45,197 nt of DNA. It comes from Planctomycetaceae bacterium (GTDB lineage Bacteria; Planctomycetota; Planctomycetia; Planctomycetales; Planctomycetaceae). Made by a program: the position numbers and the translations under genes. The stretch covers positions 1 through 45,197 of the forward strand of contig JAKFUG010000051.1 in the NCBI GenBank assembly GCA_021732785.1, given 5' to 3'. How positions within the stretch are numbered: position 1 is the first letter of the stretch; each line of letters begins with the position of its first letter. This document shows positions 3,965 through 45,197 of this stretch, piece after piece. Under the pieces are notes generated by a model. That model was given only the letters and a program-made list of their open reading frames with translations, made no database searches and was not told the origin of the DNA.

Positions 3965-4969
3965 ATGTCCTCATCTCGCTTCAATTTCTCCGACAGGCTC
4001 AGAGATTTTTATCCCAAGGCTTCGGCCGCAAAGGCTCAAGCCCGACCAACGAGCGGCAAAGATCGTCCGAAAGGGAGTGGTTCGATCAGCAGGCCGTTGA
4101 TGGCTGAATTAGCGATCCGGTACATCACCTGGGCGACCGAGCACTTTGTGTCTCCGACAACGGGCGAGCCGACGGCGGAAGTCGAGCGCGTCAGAAATGT
4201 TCTTCGGCAGCTCTGGGAGTTCTGTGGAAGTGTACCGATCGATGAGTTCGACCTGATTACGTTGGCCCGTTTTCGGGAGTATCTCCGCAAGCTGAATTGG
4301 ACTTCCCGGCATGCTGAGCGGTCCATCGAGCTCGTCGTAGAAATGTTGCGATGGAGCGCAACGGTTCAACTCGTCACGTCCCGAGAAATCGCCTGGTTGA
4401 CGAACGCCGAGAAGGCTCCGAAATCCGCGGCCGCATCAACCAAGCCGTTCCGTGGGGTCAGCGAAAAGCGGATCGCGGCTGCGACTTCGGGCATGAAAAG
4501 AGGCAGTAGAGATCTTGTCGAACTCGTGAGGCTCACGGGCGCATTTCCGCGCCAATTGTGTGCCCTTCGACCATGTGATATCGATGCTACTGGCGACGTC
4601 TGGAAGGCTGCGCTGCCTCAGCAAGAAAACGCACTTCGCGGAAATGAACGGTCACTGTTGTTCGGTCCGAATGCTCAGCAAATCCTGAAGTGCTATCTCG
4701 CTGAAACCAACGCTCAAGACCGGCTGTTTCCGGTCTCCGGGGCCGGCATTCAACACGCCATTTACAGGGGATGCCATCGCGCGGGAGTGAAAGCCTTCAC
4801 TCCCCGCGATCTCCATTATTCCACGGCGACCAAGATTCGAAAGAAGCTGGGGCTCGCACATGCGAAAGCATGGCTTCGACTGAAGCTTTGCCACACGGTT
4901 CAAATGTCTGCCGATTCATTGGAGCGAGCCGACGGCCTAGCACGTGAAGCCGCGTTGTTCTTCGGCTGA
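3965..4969 (+). CDS. Catalytically dead tyrosine recombinase paralogue
   Basis: This 334-residue protein aligns along its length with the intact integrase encoded next door (5035-6159): for example SISRPLMAELAIRYITWATEH against SISKPLIAELSIAFLVWGAEH, and LTGAFPRQL against LTGARPGEI. Every alignable catalytic position is changed: first Arg to Phe194, Lys to Glu221, the HxxR box (HQLRHT) to RDLHYS (281-286), and the nucleophile Tyr to Ser318. An LCH at 308-310 may correspond to LGH. The frame is fully open and has a good ribosome site, so it is not an obviously decaying pseudogene. Likely role: DNA-binding or architectural partner, or competitor, of the active enzyme. Alternatively it is a recent relic. 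Confidence 0.8.
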   Translation: MSSSRFNFSDRLRDFYPKASAAKAQARPTSGKDRPKGSGSISRPLMAELAIRYITWATEHFVSPTTGEPTAEVERVRNVLRQLWEFCGSVPIDEFDLITLARFREYLRKLNWTSRHAERSIELVVEMLRWSATVQLVTSREIAWLTNAEKAPKSAAASTKPFRGVSEKRIAAATSGMKRGSRDLVELVRLTGAFPRQLCALRPCDIDATGDVWKAALPQQENALRGNERSLLFGPNAQQILKCYLAETNAQDRLFPVSGAGIQHAIYRGCHRAGVKAFTPRDLHYSTATKIRKKLGLAHAKAWLRLKLCHTVQMSADSLERADGLAREAALFFG

Positions 4970-5034: not shown

Positions 5035-6159
5035 ATGTCGCAATCATCGCCTATCCGTCGTCCTCAATCTGATCCGCCAGCCATTATGTTCAAGGGCGGA
5101 CGGCTGAAAACTATTCGACCAAAAGCAACCCCCACGGCCGCGGAAACGATCGCAAAACGGGTTGAAACTCATCCCATGTTCACGAAGAGAGAAGCGTCGA
5201 TCAGCAAGCCCTTGATCGCCGAGCTGTCGATCGCCTTCCTTGTGTGGGGAGCGGAACACTACAAGTCCCCCAGGACGGGGAAGCCGACTGCCGAACTCGC
5301 ATGTTTCAAAAGCGTCGTCACTCAACTCCGTGAATACTTTGGCACGTTGCCGGCTGACGAGTTCGATTCTGCCAAGTTGATCGAGTTTCGAGATCGGCTC
5401 ATCAAGCTGGATTGGACCCGCGGCTTCATCAATCGTTCAATCTCGCGGGTCGTGCGAATGTTCCGCTGGGGAGTGTCACGAAAGTTGGTGAATGCGGGCA
5501 CGCTAGCCGAGCTGACTTGCGTAGACGGGCTTGAGGCTGGTCGGACCGCCGCGCGAGACAATCCTGAGCGGCGCGCCGTCCCACAAGCACGCCTCGAAGC
5601 CGTGCGAAAGTTACTCCCCGATCATCTTCGTGACGCGTTCGATCTGTTGTTATTGACAGGGGCACGGCCGGGGGAGATTTTCACGATCACCGGAGCAATG
5701 ATTGACAGGACAGGTGAGGTCTGGCGATGCCCATTGATCCATCACAAAACAGCGCATCGGGGGAAGGAGCGAGTTCTCTATTTCAACTCGAGCGCGCAGG
5801 TCATCCTGAGTCGACGCATGCGAGACGATGATCTTTCGCAGCGAATCTTTCCTATCACGCCTGAGCATTTCGGGGACGCCGTGAGGGAAGCTTGCAAGGA
5901 AGCGTTCGGCTACCCGGCGGATCTGCGAAAGCCCGTCAAGGCAATGACCGCAGCCGAGCGGGCTCGCCTGGCAGACTGGAAACGAGCGAACGCGTTTGTT
6001 CCCCACCAACTGCGGCACACGGTTGCGACCAAGCTGGTCGATGAAATCGGCATCGACGCAACACAGCGACTCTTGGGGCATTGCTCGGCGGCAATGACGG
6101 CCCACTATTCCAAAGCGGCGGAAGGACAGGCGATCGAAGCGGCAAAGAGGCTCGGTTGA
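5035..6159 (+). CDS. Tyrosine recombinase / integrase
   Basis: The 374-residue protein has an N-terminal SAM-like core-binding domain (about 55-165) and a C-terminal catalytic domain with the full set of residues: R211 in TGARPGE, K238 in HHKT, H324 and R327 in HQLRHT, H349 in LLGH and Y358 in HYSKA. It is close to the element 2 integrase (22471-23571), sharing TGARPGE, PHQLRHTV and RLLGH. It follows the dead paralogue by 65 bases in the same direction, probably as one transcription unit. It is not next to a recognisable att site in this window, so its target is unclear. Confidence 0.9.
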   Translation: MSQSSPIRRPQSDPPAIMFKGGRLKTIRPKATPTAAETIAKRVETHPMFTKREASISKPLIAELSIAFLVWGAEHYKSPRTGKPTAELACFKSVVTQLREYFGTLPADEFDSAKLIEFRDRLIKLDWTRGFINRSISRVVRMFRWGVSRKLVNAGTLAELTCVDGLEAGRTAARDNPERRAVPQARLEAVRKLLPDHLRDAFDLLLLTGARPGEIFTITGAMIDRTGEVWRCPLIHHKTAHRGKERVLYFNSSAQVILSRRMRDDDLSQRIFPITPEHFGDAVREACKEAFGYPADLRKPVKAMTAAERARLADWKRANAFVPHQLRHTVATKLVDEIGIDATQRLLGHCSAAMTAHYSKAAEGQAIEAAKRLG

Positions 6160-8172: not shown

Positions 8173-8206
8173 GGCGTCCGCCCCCCGACCAAGAGTTGCG
8201 GACGCC
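8173..8206 (+). promoter_or_regulatory. Hairpin between the AlpA-like gene and the initiator gene
   Basis: GGCGTCCGC (8173-8181) pairs with GCGGACGCC (8198-8206) around a 16-base loop. It lies 12 bases after the upstream stop codon and 94 bases before the initiator start. It may be a terminator without a T-tract or a regulatory stem. Confidence 0.45.
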
Positions 8207-8300
8207 CTCAAAGGACTGACGGCATGAATGATAGAACGGGCGACCCACGCCGACAAGATCGCCCATCACTCACCGGCGCGATCGGCTGGGAGCGTGTGTG

Positions 8301-9425
8301 ATGAAACACTCTCCCCACCAACCCAAACTCGACTTCACTCGCGGCCAGATGCTTCACCTTCGACGGGAGATCAGTCTTCCGCCGACTCAAAAGTTTCTGT
8401 TGTGGGCACTCGATGACGCGATCCGCAACGGCACATCGTGGACGCTCTCGATCGCGGATCTGATGAAGGTCACCGGGTTCAAGGAAACCGCCACGCGCGA
8501 CGGCTTGAACTCGCTGAAAGACGCCGCCCTCATCTGGTGGAAGCTCTGCCCGGACGGCCGAAGAGAATACTTCATCACCTGGCAGAACATTGAGGAAGCC
8601 GTCGACGCACAAACCCCCGCTCAGCGAGAAGAGGACACCGCGGCCGACGAGGTTGAAGCCGAGCCCGTCGCCCAGGTCTTGAGTCCGGCAAGCGGACCGG
8701 CAGTCCGCCAAACGGACCATGAGTCCGCCTGCCGGACCGAGAGTCCGTTAAACGGACCGACGGTCCGCCAAACGGACTCCTCTATAAGGAAGATCGAGCA
8801 TTTAACCGAACCTCTTATCGAACCATCATCGCCATCATCCGCGCGCCAGCTCGAAGCGATCGACGAGACGATGGTGGTGATGGTCGGAGAGACGGGCATC
8901 CGGAGACCCGAGGAAGCCGTGAGGAAGGCGATCGCCAACGGCATGGCCCGCGCCCAGCTCGCCGCGGTGATCGATCACTACAACGCATTTCCCGGCCGCT
9001 GGCTGCCTGGCGTGTTGTTCGATCGGTTGACTCGCGCCGGCGCTTGGCGATTGCCGGCCGCTGAGGGTTGGTTCGGAGACTCACCTGAGTGGACCGCTCG
9101 CAAGCCACGGGAACCGAATGAGAACAATCGGCCGCAGTCACCAGACGAGCGCGTGGTCGCCTCATTGAACCTCGAAGGCATCCACGGCGCGGCGCTCGAT
9201 GAACTCACTCCCGAGCAGCTTCTCGAACTCGCCAGCACATCACCCCGGCGGTTCTCCCGACGAGATCTCGAAAGCATGAAGGTCGTTCGCCCCAATCATC
9301 CCGACTTTCGTGCTCAGTTCCTCTTGGCACTCGATGATCGGCTGATGGGGAAAGTCCCCCCACTTGGAACGCCGCCGCCGGCCGCGAGCAGCTCCGGCCC
9401 GAACGTCGAACCCGCCGCGCCGTGA
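8301..9425 (+). CDS. Lambda-O-like replication initiator of element 1, origin embedded in the gene
   Basis: The 374-residue protein has an N-terminal winged-helix region (about 10-95: WTLSIADLMKVTGFKETATR, then LNSLKDAALIWWK), a low-complexity linker (about 110-190), and a C-terminal domain shared with the element 2 initiator (MVVMVGETGI, then AVIDHYNAFPGRWLPGVLFD and RLTRAGAW). The linker DNA is an array of five 20-bp iterons followed by an A/T-rich stretch. This arrangement matches phage O-type initiators, which bind iterons in their own gene and load the helicase. The start is ATG 8301 (or GTG 8298) after GGGAG. The assignment rests on architecture, not on a strong family match. Confidence 0.65.
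   Translation: MKHSPHQPKLDFTRGQMLHLRREISLPPTQKFLLWALDDAIRNGTSWTLSIADLMKVTGFKETATRDGLNSLKDAALIWWKLCPDGRREYFITWQNIEEAVDAQTPAQREEDTAADEVEAEPVAQVLSPASGPAVRQTDHESACRTESPLNGPTVRQTDSSIRKIEHLTEPLIEPSSPSSARQLEAIDETMVVMVGETGIRRPEEAVRKAIANGMARAQLAAVIDHYNAFPGRWLPGVLFDRLTRAGAWRLPAAEGWFGDSPEWTARKPREPNENNRPQSPDERVVASLNLEGIHGAALDELTPEQLLELASTSPRRFSRRDLESMKVVRPNHPDFRAQFLLALDDRLMGKVPPLGTPPPAASSSGPNVEPAAP
8681..8778 (+). repeat. Five 20-bp palindromic iterons: putative origin of element 1
   Basis: Inverted pairs GTCCG-N5-CGGAC recur with an exact 20-bp period: the AGTCCG (or GGTCCG) steps start at 8682, 8702, 8722, 8742 and 8762. Twenty is not a multiple of three, so successive units are read in different frames; the repeat is therefore maintained at DNA level and not as a protein repeat. 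A less G/C-rich stretch follows (about 8779-8820, with CTCTATAAGG and ACCTCTTATC), a possible unwinding element. Confidence 0.75.
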
Positions 9426-9485
9426 TCCGGCCGGCATGTTGTGTTACCATCCGTTTGCCTTTGCCCGCTGGTGGGGTTGATCGAC

Positions 9486-9521
9486 CTGAGAACCGATCAG
9501 CCCTGCCGGCGGGGTTCTCAG
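9486..9521 (+). promoter_or_regulatory. Leader hairpin before the element 1 integrase
   Basis: CTGAGAACC (9486-9494) pairs perfectly with GGTTCTCAG (9513-9521), with an inner CCC/GGG possible. It ends nine bases before ATG 9531 and three bases before the AAGG ribosome site, so it is well placed to control integrase translation. Confidence 0.5.
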
Positions 9522-9530
9522 CAAGGTTCA

Positions 9531-11081
9531 ATGTCCATGTCCCGCATTCATCGCCCCAGCATTACCCGCTACGTCGACGCCAACGGCCGCCGTTGCACCA
9601 AGAGCACGCCCGGCGCTCGGAAGATCTCCGAGAAGTCGAAAACCTATTGGGGCGTGTATCGCGACGCCGAGGGGATCGAACGGTGGGTTGCTCTCTCGAC
9701 CGACAAGACCGCCGCGCAGGCGATGCTCGCCGACAAGGTCAAAGCCGCGTTGAACACTGAGGCCGGTTTGCGATCGCGGTTCGATGACCACCTGGCGAAG
9801 CCTTTGAAGAAACATCTGGCCGACTACCGCAAGGTGCAAGAGGCCCGGAAACGATCGCCGGTCCATATCGACAACTCGATCCGGTGGACCGAGGAAGCCT
9901 TGAACGGCTGTCGCATCGTGTGGTGGCGCGATCTGTCTGTCTCATCGGTCGAGATGTGGCTCAGCGGAGAGATTGCCGCCGATCGCGGGTTGGCGACGCT
10001 GAACCACGTCATTGAATCGATCAAGGCGTTCCTCAATTGGCTGGTCGCGGATGGCCGCGCTCCCTCGAACCCGTTGCAAGGGTTGGGCAAGTACAACGCC
10101 GACACGGACCGTCGCCGCGTGCGGCGTGCTCTCACTACGGATGAGCTGTCGCGGTTGTTCGATGTCACGGTGAAGAGTTCCACGATCGTGAGCGGCTTCG
10201 ACGGACCGACGCGCGAGATCCTCTACCGAGCGGCCGCCTATACCGGGCTCCGTGCGAGTGAGCTGGCCAGTCTCACGGAAGGATCCTTCGACTTCGCAGG
10301 GGGCACGGTTTCGATTTCGGCGAAATCAACCAAGAACCGGAAGACGGCGGATCTGCCGTTGCACGTCGATTTCGCGGCCCGGTTGCAAGCCTGGCTCGAA
10401 GCCCGCCGCCGAGCGGCCCCGACGCTCACCCTGAAGCCCGCTACGGCGAAGCTGTGGCCCGGTGGATGGGCCGAGAAGCGGCGAGGGGCGTCGATGCTCC
10501 GGATGGATCTGGAAGCGGCGGGAATCGCTCATGCGGGCGACGACGGCGAGCGGGTGGACTTCCACGCCCTGCGGACGACGTTCGTCACCCAGCTCGCACG
10601 GGCGGGGGTCTCACTGGTGGACGCCCAGAAGCTGGCTCGGCACTCGACGCCGCAACTGACCGCCAAGAGCTACACGAAGCTCACCCTGCATGACCTGGCT
10701 GGCTCGGTCTCGAAACTGCCGAACGCCGAGGCGAAGGCGGCCGCCAAGACCGGGACGGATGACAAACCTGTCACCCCGGCTGCGGATTTGGTTGCACGTT
10801 TGGTTGCACGTCCCCCAGCTACAGATTGCCACAACTCTGGACAATCGGCCGAAACGGCAGACGGGAAAAAGAAACAGGCTGGCGACCGTAAGTTACAGTC
10901 GCCAGCCATGTTAAGTCGATCCGAACCGGAATGCCCAAGACAGGATTTGAACCTGCACGAGTGTTACCTCACTAGGCCCTCAACCAAGAACGCTAATAAG
11001 ACGTTTCAGCAGAATTCCCATAAAAACAAGGCTTATTCCTTCTGCATGACTCTCACGAATCCTCTCACACAATCAACGTAA
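9531..11081 (+). CDS. Tyrosine integrase of element 1, reading through the att site
   Basis: The 516-residue protein has an Arm/N-terminal region, a core-binding domain (about 85-185) and a catalytic domain with R241 (TGLRASE), K268, H345 and R348 (HALRTT), H371 (ARHST) and Y381 (KSYTKL). About 60 residues after the catalytic end, the frame runs through the 55-bp att repeat (residues about 467-485: CPRQDLNLHECYLTRPST) and stops 96 bases inside element 2. The C-terminal tail therefore depends on which DNA lies beyond the att site and would change on excision. ATG 9531 is chosen for AAGG seven bases upstream; ATG 9441 lacks support. Confidence 0.9.
   Translation: MSMSRIHRPSITRYVDANGRRCTKSTPGARKISEKSKTYWGVYRDAEGIERWVALSTDKTAAQAMLADKVKAALNTEAGLRSRFDDHLAKPLKKHLADYRKVQEARKRSPVHIDNSIRWTEEALNGCRIVWWRDLSVSSVEMWLSGEIAADRGLATLNHVIESIKAFLNWLVADGRAPSNPLQGLGKYNADTDRRRVRRALTTDELSRLFDVTVKSSTIVSGFDGPTREILYRAAAYTGLRASELASLTEGSFDFAGGTVSISAKSTKNRKTADLPLHVDFAARLQAWLEARRRAAPTLTLKPATAKLWPGGWAEKRRGASMLRMDLEAAGIAHAGDDGERVDFHALRTTFVTQLARAGVSLVDAQKLARHSTPQLTAKSYTKLTLHDLAGSVSKLPNAEAKAAAKTGTDDKPVTPAADLVARLVARPPATDCHNSGQSAETADGKKKQAGDRKLQSPAMLSRSEPECPRQDLNLHECYLTRPSTKNANKTFQQNSHKNKAYSFCMTLTNPLTQST
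10313..10327. repeat. Third copy of palindrome GATTTCG-N-CGAAATC
   Basis: GATTTCG-G-CGAAATC lies within the integrase coding sequence (codons for SISAKS). It matches the copies at 2026-2040 and 6181-6195 at all 14 palindromic positions. Confidence 0.55.
10931..10985. repeat. att site between elements 1 and 2 (55-bp direct repeat of tRNA-Leu 3' half)
   Basis: This 55-bp sequence is identical to 23673-23727, which covers the anticodon, variable arm, T arm and 3' end of the tRNA-Leu gene. The flanking bases differ immediately on both sides. It is therefore the distal att of element 2 and the proximal att of element 1. No complete tRNA is present here because the 5' half is missing. Confidence 0.92.
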
Positions 11082-16749: not shown

Positions 16750-17736
16750 TTACTGCGGGCTCGCCGGGTCCTTCGGTAACTTGATCGAGGCGGCGAATGC
16801 GGCCATGCCTTGGCTCAGATTGCTGAACCGTTTCTGCACCAGTTCCACCCGCGCGGGTTCCGTGTAGAGTCCATAAGGCCCTTTGAACGCGGCATTCTCC
16901 GCTTTCGCGGCGGCGAGATCCTTCACCAGCGCGTCGTACTTCTTCTGCAATTCCGCAAGCTGGGCTTTGAGTTCTTCGGCTTCCCGGTCCTTCGCGGCTT
17001 TCTGGTCCTGAAGAACGCCACCCCACAGGGAGAGACTTTCATCCCATGATTTGCCCTCGGTGAACCACAGCGCGCCGTGATGCCGGCCGAACCGGGCGAT
17101 GAAATCCCGGCCGGACTTGGCAACCGGATCGGCAGCCGCGGGAGCAATAACGCGAACTTCCACGTCGGCATTGCTGCCGGCGCTGAATTCGATGCCCGTA
17201 TTCCCGTCCGAACCGTACGGACAGACGGCGACACCCCACAGTTGCCACTCACGGAAGATGGTCAACGGGCCGTCGACCTGCTGGCCGTTGACGGTCGCTA
17301 CCATCCCTTCGGAGATTTGTTCAATGACGAGCCCATCCCAATTGGTGAGGATCGACGCTTCGTAAGGGACGCCCGCCTTCCGCTTGGATTGGACTTCAAA
17401 CGCCCGATCGTCGCCCAGGCTGACCAGTGAGCCGGACAGCATCAGGGCGTTGTCGCGGAGTTCCTGCCGATCGGCAAAGCCGATGACATCATCGGGGTTG
17501 TGGCAGTAGTCCACGGTGATGGTCGGCTTCGCGGGTATCATGCCTTCGAAGTCGTGAATGCAGTTCCCCCACCACGGATGCTGGGCAATCCCGCCGGTCC
17601 GGGCGGTCATCACGAACGGGTACAACGTCGCGCCGTCGTCACCGGCGGTGGCTTCCACGGTACCGGGCACAAGTTCGGCGGCAAACTGCAGCGCGGACCG
17701 AGGAACTTTGCGGGATGTGAATTGCTGCGGAGACAT
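16750..17736 (-). CDS. Phage prohead protease fused to a scaffold-like coiled coil
   Basis: The 328-residue protein has features of caudovirus prohead serine proteases: H79 in DYCHNPDDVIGFAD, followed by LMLSGSLVS and S128 in AGVPYEASI. A C-terminal coiled coil (about 240-290: KDREAEELKAQLAELQKKYD) resembles a scaffold domain, as in proteases fused to scaffold (Mu I-like). ATG 17736 has AAAGG eight bases upstream. It lies at the end of a three-gene minus-strand unit. No capsid, portal or terminase gene is recognised nearby, so it might act on a helper's capsid. Assignment is by motif only. Confidence 0.65.
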   Translation of the reverse strand: MSPQQFTSRKVPRSALQFAAELVPGTVEATAGDDGATLYPFVMTARTGGIAQHPWWGNCIHDFEGMIPAKPTITVDYCHNPDDVIGFADRQELRDNALMLSGSLVSLGDDRAFEVQSKRKAGVPYEASILTNWDGLVIEQISEGMVATVNGQQVDGPLTIFREWQLWGVAVCPYGSDGNTGIEFSAGSNADVEVRVIAPAAADPVAKSGRDFIARFGRHHGALWFTEGKSWDESLSLWGGVLQDQKAAKDREAEELKAQLAELQKKYDALVKDLAAAKAENAAFKGPYGLYTEPARVELVQKRFSNLSQGMAAFAASIKLPKDPASPQ

Positions 17737-17846
17737 GGGAACGACCTTTCTGTGAATGAGAGATAAAACCACCCGGCGTGGACAGGGCTCCTGTTCCCTG
17801 CCCACGCCTCGGTTACCGCGGGGCAATGACTCCCGCGGCGGGTGGA

Positions 17847-19483: not shown

Positions 19484-20524
19484 TCATGATGCGGCCCCTA
19501 CTTCAGCGGTTTGGACGGATGCTGATGCACGACGATGCAGCAACTGCAACAGGTCGGGACGGAAGTGCGGGTGGGTACGGCCAAAGCGGTGGAGTTCCTC
19601 GACCCACCTCGGTGACATCCCCGCTGTCAGACCATCCACCTCGTCATCGGTCAGGGCGTTCAGTGTCGAACCGTGTTGGGCTTCGAGGTCATCCCGCCGT
19701 GCGATCGCTGGTGATGGCGATCGGTAACCTTCCTTAGCAGGGCACCATCCCTCGTCGGGCCGCATCATTTTCGCCCCACGAAGCGTTAGCCGTTGGTACA
19801 ACGCTCCGGCTTCCCACTTGCCCGGATAGCTGCGGAAGTGTTCCACCACGGCCATGATGCCTTCGAGGCTCAGCCCGTTCGCCTGGGCAATCTCCACGGC
19901 TTCCACGCATTTGCTGACTCCGGCATCCTTCACGGCCATCACCACCATCGCCACGCTTGGGGATGGTGGTGGGGATGGGGGAGTATTTTGGGGAATAAGA
20001 GGTGCATTCGTGCTACTGCGAACGGTTTTCGTGCTACCACGAATTTCGTTCGCAGTAGCACGAACGGTTTTCGTGGTGCTGCGAACGGTTTTCGTGCTAC
20101 CACGAAGATCGAGCCCCTGCTGGGCGGCCAAATCGAAGAGGTTGGACCAGCAGATAGAGAAGCGGATCAGCCCCCCTAGTTCTGGTTTCCGCCGGATCAA
20201 ACTCACGCGGTCAAGATCACCAGCAATTCGATAGACGGTACTTTCGGAAACGTCCATCTCGACGGCCAGCAGCGCGTAGCTGAGAGACCAGCCCTCGCAC
20301 TTCCCGATGTGATGATCGAGGAGCAAGAGTAGATGCTTGTGCCCCTGCCCACCGTATCGCACGATGCGATGCCCGTTCGCCCCGTTCGTGCAATACATCT
20401 CGACCGAATTGAGATCGACCAAACGAACCGCATTCATTCGTTGCGTGGCGTCCAGTACGAGCGTTTGCTGTCGTGCGTCGGGTATATGTCTGGCACGCTC
20501 TTCCTTGGCGTTTTGATCGTCCAT
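19484..20524 (-). CDS. Lambda-O-like replication initiator of element 2, origin embedded in the gene
   Basis: The 346-residue protein has an N-terminal winged-helix region (YALLAVEMDVSESTVYRIAG, then LDRVSLIRRK), a repeat linker (STKTVRSTTKTVRATANEIR) and a C-terminal domain homologous to the element 1 initiator (AMVVMAVKDAG, AVVEHFRSYPGKWEAGALYQ, RLTLRGAKMMRPDEGW). The linker DNA is an array of five palindromic iterons. ATG 20524 lies two bases after the upstream stop, so translation is probably coupled to the HTH gene 20527-20955. The N-terminal DNA-binding parts of the two initiators differ, as do their iterons. Confidence 0.65.
   Translation of the reverse strand: MDDQNAKEERARHIPDARQQTLVLDATQRMNAVRLVDLNSVEMYCTNGANGHRIVRYGGQGHKHLLLLLDHHIGKCEGWSLSYALLAVEMDVSESTVYRIAGDLDRVSLIRRKPELGGLIRFSICWSNLFDLAAQQGLDLRGSTKTVRSTTKTVRATANEIRGSTKTVRSSTNAPLIPQNTPPSPPPSPSVAMVVMAVKDAGVSKCVEAVEIAQANGLSLEGIMAVVEHFRSYPGKWEAGALYQRLTLRGAKMMRPDEGWCPAKEGYRSPSPAIARRDDLEAQHGSTLNALTDDEVDGLTAGMSPRWVEELHRFGRTHPHFRPDLLQLLHRRASASVQTAEVGAAS
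20007..20106. repeat. Five palindromic iterons with 21-bp period: putative origin of element 2
   Basis: Units of the form TTCG-N8-CGAA start at 20007, 20028, 20049, 20070 and 20091. The second and fifth are identical (TTCGTGCTACCACGAA). The third is the exact reverse complement of the first (TTCGTGCTACTGCGAA). Here 21 bp is a multiple of three, so a protein repeat also results, but the inversion of unit three points to selection on DNA. Downstream in the coding direction lies CACCTCTTATTCC and an A-rich patch, similar to ACCTCTTATC beside the element 1 array. Confidence 0.75.
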
Positions 20525-20526
20525 GT

Positions 20527-20955
20527 TCAGGACTCCGGTCGTTCTGAACGCGGACAAAGGGCATCGACTGCATTGCTCGATGCTGCGTGGGTTTGCTCCT
20601 CATCCAGTGCGGCGAGATTAGCCCAACAAATGGCGAACGTCGGGGGCTTCCACCGTTCATGGATGCGAACGAGCACGCCCAGCGCATCGAGCTTTTGCGC
20701 GATCCGATAGGCCGACTTAATGCCGACGTCGATTGAACGGGCCAGTTCCCGGTACGTGCATCGGACGGGGCGACCGCTCCATACTTCCGGATGAAGCGCC
20801 AAGGCAAACAGAAACGCCTTGTGGGATGGTCCACCGAGATGAACGCGCTGCAGCAGCGCGAACAACTGACCGCGGTCCTCTGTCAGCGTCAACTGACGCG
20901 GAGTGGATTGGTGCGAGCCAACTTGCCCGCGGTTGATTTCATGCGTACCATTCAT
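20527..20955 (-). CDS. Winged-helix replication- or regulation-associated protein
   Basis: The 142-residue protein has a winged-helix core (CTYRELARSIDVGIKSAYRI, then AQKLDALGVLVRIHE) like plasmid and phage replication initiators. AAAGGA lies nine bases upstream of ATG 20955. It directly precedes the embedded-origin initiator and has WANLAALDE near its end, similar to CWSNLFDLA in the initiator, so the two may share an ancestral domain and work together. Confidence 0.55.
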   Translation of the reverse strand: MNGTHEINRGQVGSHQSTPRQLTLTEDRGQLFALLQRVHLGGPSHKAFLFALALHPEVWSGRPVRCTYRELARSIDVGIKSAYRIAQKLDALGVLVRIHERWKPPTFAICWANLAALDEEQTHAASSNAVDALCPRSERPES

Positions 20956-22470: not shown

Positions 22471-23571
22471 TCAATCCCCACCGAGCCGCTTTGCCGCGGC
22501 CGTCGCCATCTTCTCGGCCGCTCGGCTGTAATGCTCAGTCATCATGGAATCGGAGTGCCCCAGCAGACGCTGGGCAGACTCCAAGCCCATTTCATCGGCC
22601 AGCAGCGTTCCGACCGTATGTCGCAACTGATGAGGCACCCACGGCGTGATCTCGGCGGCTTCGCAGACCGCTTTGATTTTGTTCGAGAACGTCGATCGCG
22701 TCGTGATGAAAAACCGGGCGTCGGGGTCGGCCTTGATGTGTCTCAGCAGAATTGCCTGGGCTTTGCGATTGAAGATGAGAATGCGGTCTTTCCCTTTGTG
22801 GCTCGTCTTGTGTTTCGCCAGTTCACAGCGCCACGTTTCGCCGGTTCGGTCCACATCCTTCACCCTCAGGCCGATCAATTCACCTGGGCGAGCCCCTGTC
22901 AGCAACATTAAATCGAGGATGTCTCGGTCGCGGGGTTTTAGGCGTTCACGAACGGCTTCGATGTTTGCAGGTGGGACCGAACGCCGGGCCTTGTAGTCGG
23001 GGGCTGCTGTCTCTCCCATTTTGAGCGGCAGGACCGAGTTCAGAGCATCGGCGACGGTCTGCGGGATGATTTCCCACGAGACGCCCCACCGGAAGATTGC
23101 CCGAACGCGCTTCACCTGTTTGTTGATGAAGTCCCGCGACCACGGTTTCCGGGGCGACGGCTTTCCATCAGAGTCGACGGCGTGAGGATCACCGGCCACC
23201 ATTGCATCGCGGACAATCCGCAGTTTGAGCGGTCCGAAATCGACGGCGTTGGTTTCACCAAACAACTGACGGAGAATCCGAATCGCACTTCGTTGGCAGT
23301 GCTTTTCGTCGCGGGAAAACCGTGGGAGTTCTTCCGTCGCGTACTTCAGCAGCAGGTCGACCAGTTTCAACCCGGCGGGGGACTGGTTCGCCTGTGCGGC
23401 TTCGAGCGTCTCGCCCTTGCAGAGCTTGGCGATCAACTCGCCGTAAGCTTCGCGGGCCTCGGGAGTGTCATACTTCCCAAGGTAGACCGGGCGGCGGTTG
23501 ACGAACATCACAGCCCGCCCGCTGGGCTTGTGAAGACAGAGTTTCGGTAGAGCCGAACGGCGTCGCGGCAT
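22471..23571 (-). CDS. Tyrosine integrase of element 2
   Basis: The 366-residue protein has an N-terminal region, a core-binding domain (about 68-180) and a catalytic domain with R228 (TGARPGE), K255 (KHKT), H314 and R317 (HQLRHT), H339 (LLGH) and Y348 (HYSRA). It lies 102 bases from the tRNA-Leu gene and reads away from it, as expected for the integrase that recognises this site. GGAG is seven bases upstream of ATG 23571, and an inverted repeat (23586-23605) overlaps its promoter region. Confidence 0.93.
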   Translation of the reverse strand: MPRRRSALPKLCLHKPSGRAVMFVNRRPVYLGKYDTPEAREAYGELIAKLCKGETLEAAQANQSPAGLKLVDLLLKYATEELPRFSRDEKHCQRSAIRILRQLFGETNAVDFGPLKLRIVRDAMVAGDPHAVDSDGKPSPRKPWSRDFINKQVKRVRAIFRWGVSWEIIPQTVADALNSVLPLKMGETAAPDYKARRSVPPANIEAVRERLKPRDRDILDLMLLTGARPGELIGLRVKDVDRTGETWRCELAKHKTSHKGKDRILIFNRKAQAILLRHIKADPDARFFITTRSTFSNKIKAVCEAAEITPWVPHQLRHTVGTLLADEMGLESAQRLLGHSDSMMTEHYSRAAEKMATAAAKRLGGD

Positions 23572-23605: not shown

Positions 23606-23672
23606 AACTTTTCGGAATTCTGCTGCGCCGCGGACCACCCGCGGGTAACGTAAGTCGTTTCAGCGTATCAAG

Positions 23673-23727
23673 ATGCCCAAGACAGGATTTGAACCTGCAC
23701 GAGTGTTACCTCACTAGGCCCTCAACC
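23673..23727. repeat. att site at the tRNA-Leu end of element 2
   Basis: This is the second copy of the 55-bp direct repeat at 10931-10985. It spans the tRNA from the anticodon region to the 3' end plus one base beyond. Confidence 0.92.
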
Positions 23728-23757
23728 TAGCGCGTCTGCCAGTTCCGCCACTTGGGC
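23674..23757 (-). tRNA. tRNA-Leu (anticodon GAG)
   Basis: The minus strand folds as an 84-nt tRNA: acceptor GCCCAAG/CTTGGGC, discriminator A, D arm GGCGGAACTGGCAGACGC, anticodon stem CTAGG/CCTAG with loop TTGAGGG (GAG), a long variable arm as in tRNA-Leu, and T arm with GGTTCAAATCC. No CCA is encoded. The element end restores the intact 3' half, so the gene remains functional after integration. Confidence 0.95.
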
Positions 23758-24043
23758 AGTGGGGGCGGGGATGGACCCGCCGATTCGAGTCACTATGGTA
23801 GCGAAGTTGTGGTACACGGCAAGTCTGGGCACCACGAAGTTTTACGCCGGTTGGGTCGAGAGTGGTGAAGTGTGCTGTTTATGCCGCGGAATCACGCAGA
23901 CGACGGGGCAACAAGAGAAGTCTTTTCCACAGAAGATTCCGCCGCGGTGTTTGCGACGGCGCGCTTACGCTGAGGTCAAGAGCGTTTCCCAGCGCGATCA
24001 ACCGCGGCCGGCCTGTCGCCATGCGTAATCGCGACTGAATGCT

Positions 24044-35669: not shown

Positions 35670-37021
35670 ACATGATTCACCGCTGTTTGCTGCTAATCAT
35701 CGTTGCGGAACTGTTGGGAAGCGGCGTTCTCATGGCACGTCAACTGCTGCGTGCGACCCCGCCCGAAATCGAGTGGGCGCTCGTCGATCCCGTCACGGCC
35801 GATGAAATCCGCATGGCGGCAACCACCTGCGAATCGGCCAAGGATTGGCGAAGCCTCGGCGAGCGCTACATGTCGTCGGGATGCTTCGTAGAGTCTGAAA
35901 TATGTCATCGGATCGCCTGCGAACGGGAACCGAGAAACGCCCTCTTTCGTCGCCAGTGGGGGTTTGCCCTGGAACGCCTCGGTCTATTGGACGAAGCAAA
36001 CGCACAATATCAGAAGACCATGGAGCTGTCCGGTTCCGAGGCCGATGCGTGCCGCTATTTCATCGGCAAGAATCTGCTGCGTGAGGGCCAGCCGTCCGCC
36101 GCCCGGACATTCTTTGAGGACGGGAAGAAGTTGCCTGCGAATCTGTATGAATTGGCCCGGCTGCAGATGCGAGCCGATGAGCTGACCGACGCTTCGGCCA
36201 CTTATTCCCGGTTAGCGGCGAGTGGACCGGAGATGCTGCAGGTCAATCTGCTCGGGTATCGCCTCGCCCTGGCACAGGGTGAGACGCGCAAGGCCTTGCA
36301 GCTTGCAGACAAGGTTGATTACTCGACCCGAAAGTTACAGAATCCGTTCGACGAAGAAGCAAAACGGCTCTTCAAAGCGACGCAGAAACTGGGAGCGGGT
36401 CGCTATCAGGCGCGCAGCCGCGAGTTGATCGACACCGGCCGGCTTGAGGAAGCGCAAAGTCTGCTGGAAAGCCAGGCCGCCAAAGATCGCAGTGCGACCG
36501 TCCTGGAGTTGCTTGCCGAGATCGCCCTGCAGCAGAAGCGGTTTGCCGATGCGCTCGAGTTGTTCGACGAGTTGCAACAGCAGCATGGGCCATTCCCGCG
36601 GGTGACGGACCGGATCGGAGATGTGCTGGCCGCGGAGGGCCAATCGGCACAGGCCCGCGAGTCTTGGCTGAAGGCGGCACAGCTTCAAACCGGCGTCGAT
36701 CTCAAGGCAATTCACCACAAGCTGGCTGATTCCCTGGCCGCATCGGGAGATGAGCCAACTGCCAAACAACACCGGGCGCTGGGCCATTACTATCACGGTC
36801 ACGAAGTGTTGCATCGCGGGCAAGCTGCGCAAGCGATCAATTCGTTCGTGGACGCGGTCAAAAGCGATCCCGGGTTGACTCAAGCGTGGTTTTACCTCGG
36901 AGAGTCGCGGCGGCTCACCCGGCAGCCGGAGGAGGCACGGGCCGCTTACCAGACGTGCCTGGAACAGAATCCCGATCACGGGCGTGCCTTGGCAAGCTTG
37001 TCGATGCTCGATCACAAATGA
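35666..37021 (+). CDS. TPR-repeat protein with N-terminal membrane anchor
   Basis: The 451-residue protein begins with a hydrophobic segment (CLLLIIVAELLGSGVLM) and continues with multiple tetratricopeptide-like helix pairs (for example LFRRQWGFALERLGLLDEAN, LTQAWFYLGESRRLTRQPEE). ATG 35666 overlaps the FG-GAP stop as ATGA, so both are translated together. It likely serves as a periplasmic or membrane scaffold for the exported repeat protein. Confidence 0.85.
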   Translation: MNMIHRCLLLIIVAELLGSGVLMARQLLRATPPEIEWALVDPVTADEIRMAATTCESAKDWRSLGERYMSSGCFVESEICHRIACEREPRNALFRRQWGFALERLGLLDEANAQYQKTMELSGSEADACRYFIGKNLLREGQPSAARTFFEDGKKLPANLYELARLQMRADELTDASATYSRLAASGPEMLQVNLLGYRLALAQGETRKALQLADKVDYSTRKLQNPFDEEAKRLFKATQKLGAGRYQARSRELIDTGRLEEAQSLLESQAAKDRSATVLELLAEIALQQKRFADALELFDELQQQHGPFPRVTDRIGDVLAAEGQSAQARESWLKAAQLQTGVDLKAIHHKLADSLAASGDEPTAKQHRALGHYYHGHEVLHRGQAAQAINSFVDAVKSDPGLTQAWFYLGESRRLTRQPEEARAAYQTCLEQNPDHGRALASLSMLDHK

Positions 37022-37119: not shown

Positions 37120-39300
37120 ATGGAAGAGAAATCATTCGATTGTTTTGACCTGGAGCAGACGATCGGCGGGATCGCGGCCGCCCTCGGGGTAATTCCCACG
37201 CAAGTCCGGGCGGCGGTCGAACTGCTCGACGACGGGAACACCATTCCGTTTATTGCCCGCTATCGCAAAGAGGCGACGCGCGGACTCGATGAAGTGGCAT
37301 TGCGCCAGATCGAAGACGGGATCGCCAAGGCGAGAGAACTCGCGCAGCGAAAAACGACGATTCTGAAAACGATTCACGAACAAGGGCTGCTCACGCCGGA
37401 ACTGCAACAGCAAATTCGGTCGTGCTCCGACCGCCAACTGCTGGAGACACTGTATCTCCCCTTCAAGCCCGAACGGCGAACCCGGGCGACCACAGCCCGC
37501 GAGCGCGGATTGCAACCGCTGGCGGACTTGCTTCTTCGGCAGGAAAAACTGAATCGATCCAAGATGGCTGTGCTCCAACCCTACATCAATGTGGAAAACG
37601 GTGTCCTTGATGAAAACGCGGCTCTGCAAGGGGCATGCGATATCCTCGCCGAGCAATGGTCGCAGCATCCGCCCCTGCGTCAATGGCTGCTCCAACAAGC
37701 AAACGAATGGGGCTTGATCGCTTCGAGCGTCAAACGTGGCAAGCAGGCGGAAGCCAGCAAATTCGAGATGTATTTCGATCATCGCGAGCCGGTCAAACGC
37801 ATCCCGTCGCACCGGTTGCTGGCCATGCAGCGCGGCGAAGCGGAAGGGCTGCTCAAGGTCTGCCTGAAGCTCGATGACGAATTCATCCTGACAAACATCA
37901 AGCCCGAACTGGCTCACAATCCGCAGTTTGAGTTCCATCTCGATTTGTTGAGGACTGTCGACGATTGCTACCAAAGGTTGTTACTGCCGGCCATCGAATC
38001 GGTCGTGTTTGAAAACCTGAAGACCAAAGCCGACGAAGAAGCGATTGCCGTCTTCGCCAGTAACCTGCGCGAGCTGTTACTCGCCGCGCCGGCCGGACCG
38101 CAGATGACAATTGGCGTGGACCCCGGTTTTCGCACGGGTTGCAAGCTCGCGGTGGTCGACGGCACCGGCAAGTTCCTCGCCAACACCACCATCTATCCCA
38201 CGCCGCCGAGAAGCGATCTGGATGGAGCCGCCCGGACGTTGTTGGCCCTCATCACCCAGTACGACGTCAAGCTGATCGCCATTGGCAATGGGACGGCGTC
38301 GCGAGAGACCGAAGCGTTTGTTGCGGGGGTCATTAAGGAACATGGGCTCAACATCACGCCAGTGAAAGTCAGCGAGTCCGGTGCATCCATTTACTCAGCG
38401 AGTGAACTTGCCGCACGGGAGTATCCCGATCTCGATCTCACCGTCCGCGGCGCGATCAGCATCGCCCATCGTTTGCAGGACCCCCTCGCCGAGCTGGTGA
38501 AGATCGATCCCAAGTCGATTGGCGTCGGGCAATACCAGCACGATGTGAACCAACCGCTGCTCCGCAAAAGCCTCGATCGCGAAATCGAATCGTGCGTGAA
38601 TTCCGTCGGCGTGGATGTGAACCTGGCCAGCGCGCCGCTGCTAGCGCATGTCGCGGGCATCGGCCCGAGGCTCGCCGAGAACATCGTAGAATTCCGGAAT
38701 GTGAACGGTCGGTATCGAACGCGAGAGGAACTCTGCAACGTCCCCAAACTCGGCCGCAAGGCGTTTGAGCAGGCGGCGGGCTTCCTGCGGATTCGCGATG
38801 GCCAGCAGCCACTCGACAATTCGGCCGTCCATCCGGAAAGTTACTACGTGGTGACAAAAATGGCGGCCAAACTCGGTGTCGCGACAAAAGAGCTCGTTGG
38901 AAATGGAGCGCTTGCCACCCGTCTGCAAGCCGCTGATTTTGTCGACGCGAAAATGGGCTTGCCGACGGTGCAGGATATTCTCGCCGAACTCGCCAAGCCG
39001 GGCCGCGATCCGCGCAGCGAATTCAAAGTGGCGCAGTTCGCCGAAGGCATCCACGAACTGAAAGACCTCCAGGTCGGCATGATCCTGGAGGGGGTCATTA
39101 CCAACGTTACCAAGTTTGGTGCCTTCGTCGATCTCGGCGTCCACCAAGACGGGCTCATTCACATTTCGCAGCTCGCCAACAAGTTCATTCAGGACCCCAG
39201 CGAAATCGTCGCCGTGGGCGATGTGGTGCGTGTGAAGGTGCTCGAAGTCGATCTCGATCGAAAGCGCATCGCCGTTTCACTCAAGGATGCCACTCCATGA
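37120..39300 (+). CDS. tex: Tex family transcription accessory / RNA-binding protein
   Basis: The 726-residue protein matches Tex (YhgF): N-terminal helical Tex domain (NTIPFIARYRKEATRGLDEV), a YqgF-like RNase H fold (TIGVDPGFRTGCKLAVVDGT, IAIGNGTASRETEAFV), helix-hairpin-helix motifs (AHVAGIGPRLAENIVEFRN), and a C-terminal S1 RNA-binding domain (GMILEGVITNVTKFGAFVDL, then GVHQDGLIHIS). Length is close to the usual 720-780. It is a housekeeping gene and appears complete. Confidence 0.97.
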   Translation: MEEKSFDCFDLEQTIGGIAAALGVIPTQVRAAVELLDDGNTIPFIARYRKEATRGLDEVALRQIEDGIAKARELAQRKTTILKTIHEQGLLTPELQQQIRSCSDRQLLETLYLPFKPERRTRATTARERGLQPLADLLLRQEKLNRSKMAVLQPYINVENGVLDENAALQGACDILAEQWSQHPPLRQWLLQQANEWGLIASSVKRGKQAEASKFEMYFDHREPVKRIPSHRLLAMQRGEAEGLLKVCLKLDDEFILTNIKPELAHNPQFEFHLDLLRTVDDCYQRLLLPAIESVVFENLKTKADEEAIAVFASNLRELLLAAPAGPQMTIGVDPGFRTGCKLAVVDGTGKFLANTTIYPTPPRSDLDGAARTLLALITQYDVKLIAIGNGTASRETEAFVAGVIKEHGLNITPVKVSESGASIYSASELAAREYPDLDLTVRGAISIAHRLQDPLAELVKIDPKSIGVGQYQHDVNQPLLRKSLDREIESCVNSVGVDVNLASAPLLAHVAGIGPRLAENIVEFRNVNGRYRTREELCNVPKLGRKAFEQAAGFLRIRDGQQPLDNSAVHPESYYVVTKMAAKLGVATKELVGNGALATRLQAADFVDAKMGLPTVQDILAELAKPGRDPRSEFKVAQFAEGIHELKDLQVGMILEGVITNVTKFGAFVDLGVHQDGLIHISQLANKFIQDPSEIVAVGDVVRVKVLEVDLDRKRIAVSLKDATP

Positions 39301-44564: not shown

Positions 44565-45197
44565 TCAGAGCATGGGAGCGGGAGCAGGGGGAAGGACCTT
44601 CTGCTGAGTGGCAACTGCGGGATAGAACCGGGAGTTCAAATTGTCCGCGGGGAGATTGCCTGCAGGAACCACAGTCCGATTGCTGACGATCGCCTGGGTT
44701 TGAATCCGGGGCGTGTTGTAGGGATTGTTCTTCAGGTAATAGGCCAGCATCGGATTCGAAGTTGTTGAGTTCGTCGTCACGAACGCGCTGTTCGAAGCCC
44801 CGGCGGGAGTCCCCACGAGCAGAGGCGTCGCATATCCGCCATTGCTCACGTTGTAACCATTGCTGACGTTGTACGTTCCGCAGGTGCAGTTGCCGTAATT
44901 GGGCGCGTACCCGCTGTTCCCGTATCCGTAGCCACCGTAGCCCGCGCCATAGTATCCGGTGTTGATGTAGCTACCGTAATAGCGCGGGTAGACGCCGCCG
45001 TAGTAACGCGGATAGAAGCCCCCGTAGTAACGCGGATAGAAGCCGCGATATCCGCCATAGTAGCCGCGGCCCGCGTAAATGCCGCCCCCGTAGAATCCCC
45101 TCCCGAAGCCGCCGCCATAGTAACTGCGTCCGAAACCGCCGCCGTAAAAGCCGCCGCGATATCCGCCCCCATGGAAGCCCCCGCCGTGGAAACCGCC
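44565..45197 (-). CDS. Gly/Tyr-rich repetitive protein, 5' end outside the window
   Basis: The minus-strand frame ending at 44565 stays open to the window edge, giving at least 210 residues. The upstream part is almost entirely Gly, Tyr, Phe and Arg, with repeats such as GFYPRYYGGF and GRGFYGGG, then YGYGNSGYAPNYGNCTCGTY. The last 95 residues are an Asn/Thr/Pro/Ala-rich tail. No signal or start is visible because the N-terminus is missing. Composition recalls exported structural or adhesive proteins. The frame at 44846-45172 in another phase is a shadow of this repeat. Confidence 0.75.
   Translation of the reverse strand, partial: GGFHGGGFHGGGYRGGFYGGGFGRSYYGGGFGRGFYGGGIYAGRGYYGGYRGFYPRYYGGFYPRYYGGVYPRYYGSYINTGYYGAGYGGYGYGNSGYAPNYGNCTCGTYNVSNGYNVSNGGYATPLLVGTPAGASNSAFVTTNSTTSNPMLAYYLKNNPYNTPRIQTQAIVSNRTVVPAGNLPADNLNSRFYPAVATQQKVLPPAPAPML

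Follow-up and report, generated by a model that had tools for sequence, protein, structure and literature searches.

Replication origins that lie inside the gene of their own initiator are known from bacteriophage lambda, whose gene O (NC_001416) holds four iterons at 39034, 39054, 39078 and 39101 (spacing 20, 24 and 23 bp). According to the excerpts consulted, these iterons adjoin a 38-bp AT-rich sequence (PMC3349717) and binding of the O protein opens the neighbouring AT-rich region (PMC5043065); the latter excerpt also describes iteron plasmids (R6K, P1 and RK2 type), in which an array of initiator sites stands beside an AT-rich opening region. In the initiator gene of the Salmonella phage epsilon15 (NC_004775, 35179-35856), in-gene GTCCGC/GCGGAC half-sites are followed by a purine tract and then by an AT-rich stretch. 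Here, an array of palindromic iterons was analysed that lies inside a putative initiator gene of a Planctomycetaceae bacterium (assembly GCA_021732785.1, contig JAKFUG010000051.1, positions 1-45,197; this entire contig of 45,197 nt is referred to as the window). The array is probably (about 0.83 in our estimate) the section of a theta-type replication origin to which the initiator binds, the origin being placed within the initiator's own reading frame in the style of lambda O; the planctomycete case differs from lambda in its protein family, in its host phylum and in how varied its domains and sites are. The gene, here E1, belongs to the first of two elements in the window and has the following parts:

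8298-9425, plus strand: element 1 initiator gene (E1), open reading frame (ORF) of 375 aa, GTG start at 8298, alternative ATG start at 8301
8340-8573, plus strand: N-terminal winged-helix domain, residues about 15-92, AlphaFold2 secondary structure H-H-H-H-E-E
8683-8777, plus strand: iteron array in the linker, 5 × GTCCG-N5-CGGAC at 8683, 8703, 8723, 8743 and 8763, period 20
8783-8822, plus strand: AT-rich, TATA-containing patch right after the array, candidate strand-opening element
8822-8839 and 8867-8884, no strand assigned: arms of an imperfect inverted repeat at the border of linker and C-terminal domain, possible single-strand hairpin
8844-9092, plus strand: conserved C-terminal helical domain (C-domain; profile matches, alignment of 33 members)

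All five palindromes were exact and spaced by exactly 20 bp within 8681-8778, about 385-480 nt into the coding sequence, with half-sites that were invariant between copies and a centre that varied. In the whole window six exact copies of GTCCG-N5-CGGAC were counted (the five of the array and an isolated one at 36094) against 0.22 expected, and none of 100 dinucleotide shuffles of the window reached six; when two mismatches were allowed, 43 copies stood against 44.9 expected, and since this is no excess the signal in E1 is that of an exact, clustered array. The copies occupied codon phases 1, 0, 2, 1 and 0, so that all three phases were used, and 1000 synonymous-codon shuffles of E1 gave at most two copies of one spaced palindrome compared with the five present, which makes the array a property of the DNA. 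A preliminary description of this locus had named five such iterons of 20-bp period within this interval, which the exact matches bear out, and its argument that a 20-bp period out of codon phase points to selection at the DNA level holds for E1. The less G/C-rich patch that it had placed after the array was recovered at 8783-8822, and the winged helix, linker and conserved C-terminal domain that it had read from the translation agree with the predicted model of E1. Separately, an inverted repeat (GGCGTCCGC...GCGGACGCC) was seen 5' of E1 at 8173-8206, which holds iteron half-sites at a wider spacing and may be an operator or terminator.

The same question was put to the family with a repeat test, in which 7-mers that recur within 130 nt, in direct or inverted orientation, were counted and the density peak was compared with 200 synonymous-codon shuffles of the same gene, which preserve protein and codon usage. 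E1 reached a density of 39 against at most 18 in its shuffles. The full-length homologues numbered 57, counting the two window genes. Of these, 47 lay above all 200 shuffles (34/38 in a first set and, at the same settings, 13/19 in a second set fetched later), 52 had a value of 0.05 or less, and 53 had their peak at a distance of 20-200 nt upstream of the C-domain, which indicates selection of the repeats as DNA at a fixed place in the gene; homologues without linker repeats had been named beforehand as evidence against an origin, and these counts were the outcome of looking for them. Control ORFs of at least 250 aa, taken from the 38 first-set loci only and chosen as long ORFs, not called genes, exceeded all shuffles in 2 of 74 cases, and both positive controls passed (lambda O 30 vs at most 13; epsilon15 initiator 23 vs at most 12). 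Tandem Repeats Finder detected a tandem period in 42/57 homologues; for 22 of these genes the best one was 20-24 bp, and for another 10 it was 11-13 bp. The palindromes differed by member (GTCC-N7-GGAC, TTCG-N8-CGAA, TGATCA-N3-TGATCA, CGGAC-N6-GTCCG, CCGCA-N3-TGCGG and others) and included forms with no spacer (TGACCC-N0-GGGTCA in L054, GGTT-N0-AACC in L072; L and G numbers denote loci and genomes).

For these counts, a profile of nine C-domains was run against 170 genomes of the host's family, in which it gave 47 matches in 37 genomes (the order-level sample consisted of the same 170 genomes), and a profile of 33 C-domains matched 43/397 genomes sampled from the class at an expectation value (E) <=1e-6, 13 of the 43 lying outside the family; the genome counts are lower bounds, because a limited number of candidates was scored per genome. 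The first set comprised 47 loci (45 fetched and the two window genes), from which nine were excluded before counting to leave 38: L057, L061, L065, L074 and L075 were truncated, L087 and L088 were spurious, and L044 and L050 (L008 and L004) were frame-split, with N- and C-terminal parts in different frames. The second set comprised 20 of 22 new matches (the short ORFs of G013 and G017 being left out) together with L091, that is 21 loci, of which 19 were counted after removal of the short ORFs L132 and L137; 16/19 lay outside the family. The C-domain was also encoded on the viral contigs L091 (IMGVR_UViG_3300032006_000290) and L143 (profile E 2.2e-14). With single proteins as queries, neither phage nor plasmid records contained a match to E1 by tblastn, and scans of viral contigs with E1 and E2 gave no relative.

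The window holds a second member of the family, E2, on the opposite strand:

19484-20557, minus strand: element 2 initiator gene (E2), 357 aa, BLASTP against E1 32% identity over the C-terminal part, E 3e-17
20007-20106, minus strand: iteron array, 5 × TTCG-N8-CGAA, period 21, between the N- and C-terminal parts
19982-20005, minus strand: less G/C-rich patch after the array, the best 40-nt window in the interval being 55% AT
19724-19969, minus strand: C-terminal domain (profile matches; the surrounding stretch matches phrog_31502, no known function, E 4.5e-5)

By normalised score the N-domains of E1 and E2 were 0.06 alike and the C-domains 0.32, and the two arrays were unrelated yet occupied the same place in the gene. 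The repeat density of E2 was 76 against at most 26 in 200 synonymous shuffles. An ORF of 142 aa (20527-20955, minus strand) overlaps the start of E2 and resembles, by eye, a lone winged-helix domain of an initiator N-terminus; a Pfam scan of it gave no match.

The interval between array and C-domain has a composition of its own. No other 40-nt stretch of E1 was as AT-rich as 8783-8822 (63% vs 37% for the gene). TATA occurred 110-20 nt upstream of the C-domain in 18/57 homologues against a mean of 4.2 and a maximum of 10 in 200 shuffles. When the 57 genes were aligned on the C-domain start, YTMTA was concentrated 80-20 nt upstream of it (26 of 42 occurrences counted over 460 nt), AT content peaked at 0.51 in the bin 40-20 nt upstream, and C-richness 5' of the C-domain switched to G-richness 3' of it. 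Across the first set, the AT maximum of the gene fell in this interval in 12 of 38 genes, with 4.4 expected. Folding of single-stranded DNA was compared with synonymous shuffles and gave z near -1.3 for both E1 and E2; after the opening patch the mean z over the 57 genes was -0.68, with 14/57 below -1.64 (related sequences included), which is suggestive, as a hint only, of a general hairpin at this place.

The AlphaFold2 model of E1 (6 sequences, mean predicted local distance difference test (pLDDT) 59) comprised a winged helix, a linker of very low confidence (residues 115-186, predicted to be disordered and including the array-encoded part) and a helical C-domain; the C-terminal fragment modelled alone had a mean pLDDT of 50. 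Foldseek searches with the E1 N-domain against the PDB returned mostly MarR-type winged helices (best E 1.6e-3, none <=0.001), and searches with E1 against viral models returned uncharacterised and helix-turn-helix phage proteins (best 6.3e-7, template modelling scores near 0.2). The N-domains of relatives matched replication-initiation and O-like PHROG families (best 5.6e-11 and 4.6e-10), namely phrog_391, phrog_678 and phrog_345 ('replication initiation O-like') and phrog_270 ('replication initiation protein'). In a scan of 34 members, phrog_270 was matched by 11/34 and phrog_391 by 11/34 (L056, L063, L046 and L066 among the latter), and phrog_186, a DnaD-like helicase loader, by 3/34, the matched part of the protein not having been inspected in these three. 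In ten members inspected, PHROG matches lay mainly in the N-terminal part and linker, and 3/10 matched nothing at 0.001. Pfam and NCBIfam scans of the family gave matches of helix-turn-helix type and scattered weak ones, among them no DnaD/DnaT-type Pfam match at 0.01, and no functional name for the C-domain was found among Pfam, PHROGs or NCBIfam matches; the C-domain profile, when searched against PDB sequences, matched unrelated proteins only, and these weakly, the best being a de novo design at 4.2e-4.

The locus shares with lambda O and its origin the dyad-symmetric iterons within the initiator gene (20, 24 and 23 bp apart in lambda, 20 in E1 and 21 in E2), the position of the array between a DNA-binding and a C-terminal domain, and the AT-rich region adjoining the iterons. 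Lambda-like spacing was not universal, being seen in the 22 of 57 family genes with a best period of 20-24 bp, and the locus differs from lambda in the iteron sequences, in a C-domain of its own and in that no P-like loader was recognised among the window ORFs scanned. The earlier likening to lambda O thus stands for architecture and in the repeat test but not for sequence, where neither the whole-protein nor the C-domain profile aligned significantly. Iteron plasmids share the array beside an opening region but, unlike them, the planctomycete family has many iterons that are palindromes inside the gene. With epsilon15 the likeness extends to the half-sites and the AT-rich stretch, and N-domains of the epsilon15 type (class C) are among those linked to the planctomycete C-domain; epsilon15 differs in the purine tract (AGAGAAGAG...) between iterons and AT-rich part and in its C-domain, which is annotated as DnaT-like in its record and with which the planctomycete C-domain does not align. 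No description of the family was found in the literature searched, which included excerpts of PMC3985674, PMC5043065 and PMC3349717, and no paper joining 'planctomycetes' and 'iterons', in these spellings, was found; as far as that literature reaches, the claim that iteron and initiator family are undescribed holds.

Variation of the iterons with the N-domain was examined across the family. Iteron likeness was measured as the sharing of repeated 6-mers among 53 homologues that remained after four near-duplicates had been dropped. In partial Mantel tests, iterons correlated with the N-domain given the C-domain at 0.41 (P 0.0005) and with the C-domain given the N-domain at 0.18 (P 0.0005); a version on the first 38 homologues gave larger values that leaned on near-identical pairs, and it was replaced. 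An iteron overlap of at least 0.3 was reached by 1/1252 pairs with an N-domain similarity below 0.1, 1/57 at 0.1-0.2, 2/56 at 0.2-0.4 and 8/13 at 0.4 or more, and by none of 13 pairs with similar C-domains and different N-domains (largest overlap 0.15). The N-domain nearest to that of E1, L059 (0.12), has the same GTCC-N7-GGAC sites, although it is only marginally closer than L046 and L048 (0.11), which have others. The co-variation foreseen in the preliminary description was therefore found overall, with exceptions that are given below. Genome G039 carries four initiators, L053 and L055 with TGATCA-N3-TGATCA, L054 with TGACCC/GGGTCA and L046 with related TGATCAC-type repeats. The C-domain of L054 scored 0.91 and 0.87 against L053 and L055, its N-domain 0.34 and 0.35, and its iteron overlap was 0.07; when L053 and L054 were aligned and read in blocks of 60 columns, their DNA identity was 80 in the first block, then 41-70 in ten blocks and 83-93 in nine, with the switch after the array. 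This pattern suggests a joint exchange of binding domain and sites.

Class C, the N-terminal module that matches phrog_2509/9474, is common in environmental viruses with other C-domains. A class-C N-domain ORF was present in 58/59 of the viral loci L143-L201, of which 3 matched the planctomycete C-domain at E<0.01. In the viral loci L142-L281 and in epsilon15 (L322:2360-2420), the iterons of class-C initiators precede a conserved purine tract (AGAGAAGAGAAG...) within the gene. A set of 43 non-redundant class-C genes, to which the planctomycete family set contributed four, included 23 with two or more copies of CGTTAC in the 110 nt that precede the gene's longest purine run, compared with at most 7 in 100 shuffles, and the arginine codons of the class-C linker motif were AGR in 136 cases and CGN in 7, against 230 and 793 elsewhere in the same 52 genes. 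An exact 25-mer of the tract was found in at least 120 viral stretches. Of 77 non-redundant ORFs (80 loci), 73 had a class-C N-domain, and 58 read the tract in one frame and 19 in a different one; constraints on the protein do not readily account for conservation in two frames, and the tract is a candidate origin element acting at the level of DNA.

By analogy with lambda, a mechanism can be proposed in which dimers of the winged-helix N-domain would bind the palindromic iterons, successive sites being separated by about two turns of the helix, their assembly there would open the AT-rich patch 8783-8822, and the C-domain, perhaps aided by a hairpin in the opened strand, might recruit the host replicative helicase, this last being the least supported step. 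Because binding domain and iterons are adjacent in one gene they are exchangeable together, and recombination may thus exchange them as one cassette while the C-terminal domain stays. A wider reading would be that in-gene binding sites are normal for initiators of tailed phages and integrative elements, that domain, iterons and opening element form a cassette transferable onto different C-domains, and that the class-C purine tract, from planctomycete elements to epsilon15, is such an opening element. The occurrence of that tract in two frames, and in epsilon15 too, supports this wider reading, which is held tentatively, at somewhat less than even odds.

Other explanations of the array were weighed against the origin. 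That the repeats arise secondarily from a repetitive, low-complexity linker in the protein, with no function as DNA, would fit the predicted disorder of the linker, the 21-bp period of E2, which keeps codon phase and encodes a repeated peptide, and the periods of 11-13 bp in 10/57 relatives; it is already strongly contradicted by the three codon phases of the E1 copies, by the 47/57 homologues that exceed protein-preserving shuffles and by the palindromic form of many repeats, and is hardly credible. A further account has hairpins in the messenger RNA that serve attenuation or stability: GTCCG-N5-CGGAC could form 5-bp hairpins, but the palindromes with no spacer (L054, L072) would make poor RNA hairpins and good dimer sites, and in E1 it is the half-sites that are invariant while the centre varies, so that this account is also extremely improbable. 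Partition, incompatibility or recombination sites bound by the protein, in place of a start site, are very unlikely. Plasmid iteron arrays also act in copy control, which favours such a role, as do the integrases of both elements, whereas no partition gene was recognised among 18 other window ORFs scanned and the AT/TATA patch and the matches to replication families point to initiation. An operator for autoregulation or regulation of the element by the winged-helix protein, with the origin elsewhere, was judged unlikely. The MarR-like fold of the N-domain is common in repressors, and the separate inverted repeat upstream of E1 (8173-8206) carries GTCCG and CGGAC half-sites; on the other side stand the position of the array about 385-480 nt inside the coding sequence, the TATA/AT patch that follows it in many relatives, the replication-initiation families that relatives match and the shared anatomy of lambda O, whose origin is known (excerpts cited above).

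Several results weigh against the array being an origin of the proposed kind. Ten of the 57 homologues did not exceed all shuffles, with values of 0.005 (L130, L131), 0.01 (L079), 0.02 (L124), 0.05 (L081), 0.065 (L141), 0.095 (L129), 0.135 (L082), 0.18 (L073) and 0.33 (L133), although L129 has GTCGCA-N3-TGCGAC palindromes that are visible by eye; 12/74 control ORFs had a value of 0.05 or less, a same-genus homologue in G001 has no tandem array and a split frame, and the homologues share descent, so that their counts are not independent events. The out-of-phase argument fails for E2, for which the evidence at the DNA level is therefore the synonymous shuffle, and the interval patch of E2 is not the AT maximum of its gene, its opening-region signal being weaker than that of E1; in the first set only the 12/38 genes given above had their maximum there. 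By profile, E1 itself matched phrog_270 weakly (residues 20-112, E 0.0017) and phrog_33323 at 0.01 and matched no O-like PHROG profile, hhalign of whole-protein and C-domain profiles against lambda O gave a probability below 1% and no significant alignment, and no fold match supports the possible helicase role of the C-domain. Among eight pairs with similar N-domains (>=0.36) and different C-domains (<0.3), one shared iterons (L073/L082, 0.33) and seven did not (L051/L080, L081/L123, L081/L133, L123/L131, L123/L133, L135/L139 and L138/L091). These seven also weigh against the cassette, and part of the N-domain signal therefore comes from pairs that are alike in both domains; at this level, and by the 6-mer measure, N-domain likeness is needed but insufficient for shared iterons.

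The placement of both initiators in integrative elements follows from their surroundings in the window:

9441-11081, plus strand: element 1 tyrosine integrase, directly 3' of E1 (Pfam PF00589 E 1.1e-16, phrog_1 E 1.3e-40)
22471-23571, minus strand: element 2 tyrosine integrase, about 1.9 kb from E2 (Pfam PF00589 E 1.1e-21, phrog_1 E 3.1e-39)
10931-10985, no strand assigned: likely attachment-site repeat bounding element 2 on one side, 55 bp identical to a section of the tRNA-Leu gene
23673-23727, no strand assigned: likely other attachment-site repeat, the matching 55 bp inside tRNA-Leu (23672-23758)

The 55-bp direct repeats bound a 12.7-kb stretch that contains element 2, and the copy at 10931-10985 sits inside the gene for the element 1 integrase, in the 3' part of that gene, a position that suggests that elements 1 and 2 were inserted in tandem as guests of one tRNA gene. 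Adjacency of initiator and integrase was rejected as a general rule: with the three window integrases as queries, only 5/57 loci (36 from the first set and 21 from the second) had an integrase-like ORF in the flanking sequence covered. Within the element 2 stretch, an ORF at 16750-17826 (minus strand) matches phrog_3244, head maturation protease, at E 2.8e-10, a capsid-related gene in a small element. Two integrase-like ORFs, 3965-4969 and 5035-6159 (both plus strand), are same-strand neighbours and match phrog_1 at E 3.1e-6 and 1.6e-31, and a tandem repeat of period 24 in three copies lies near the contig end at 44974-45046. The PHROG scan covered 18 further window ORFs and recognised none of them as a helicase-loader gene.

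Taken as putative in-gene origins, the family members add a large set of these, from planctomycete genomes and viral contigs, which is undescribed as far as the literature was searched, and repeat density compared with synonymous shuffles provides a simple computational means of finding in-gene origins within coding sequence, that of lambda included. Each homologue couples a DNA-binding domain with its own sites, so that dozens of natural pairs are available for the study of how winged helices read DNA and how the specificity of phage origins changes; if the cassette reading is true, the specificity of the protein and that of its sites would change in one step.

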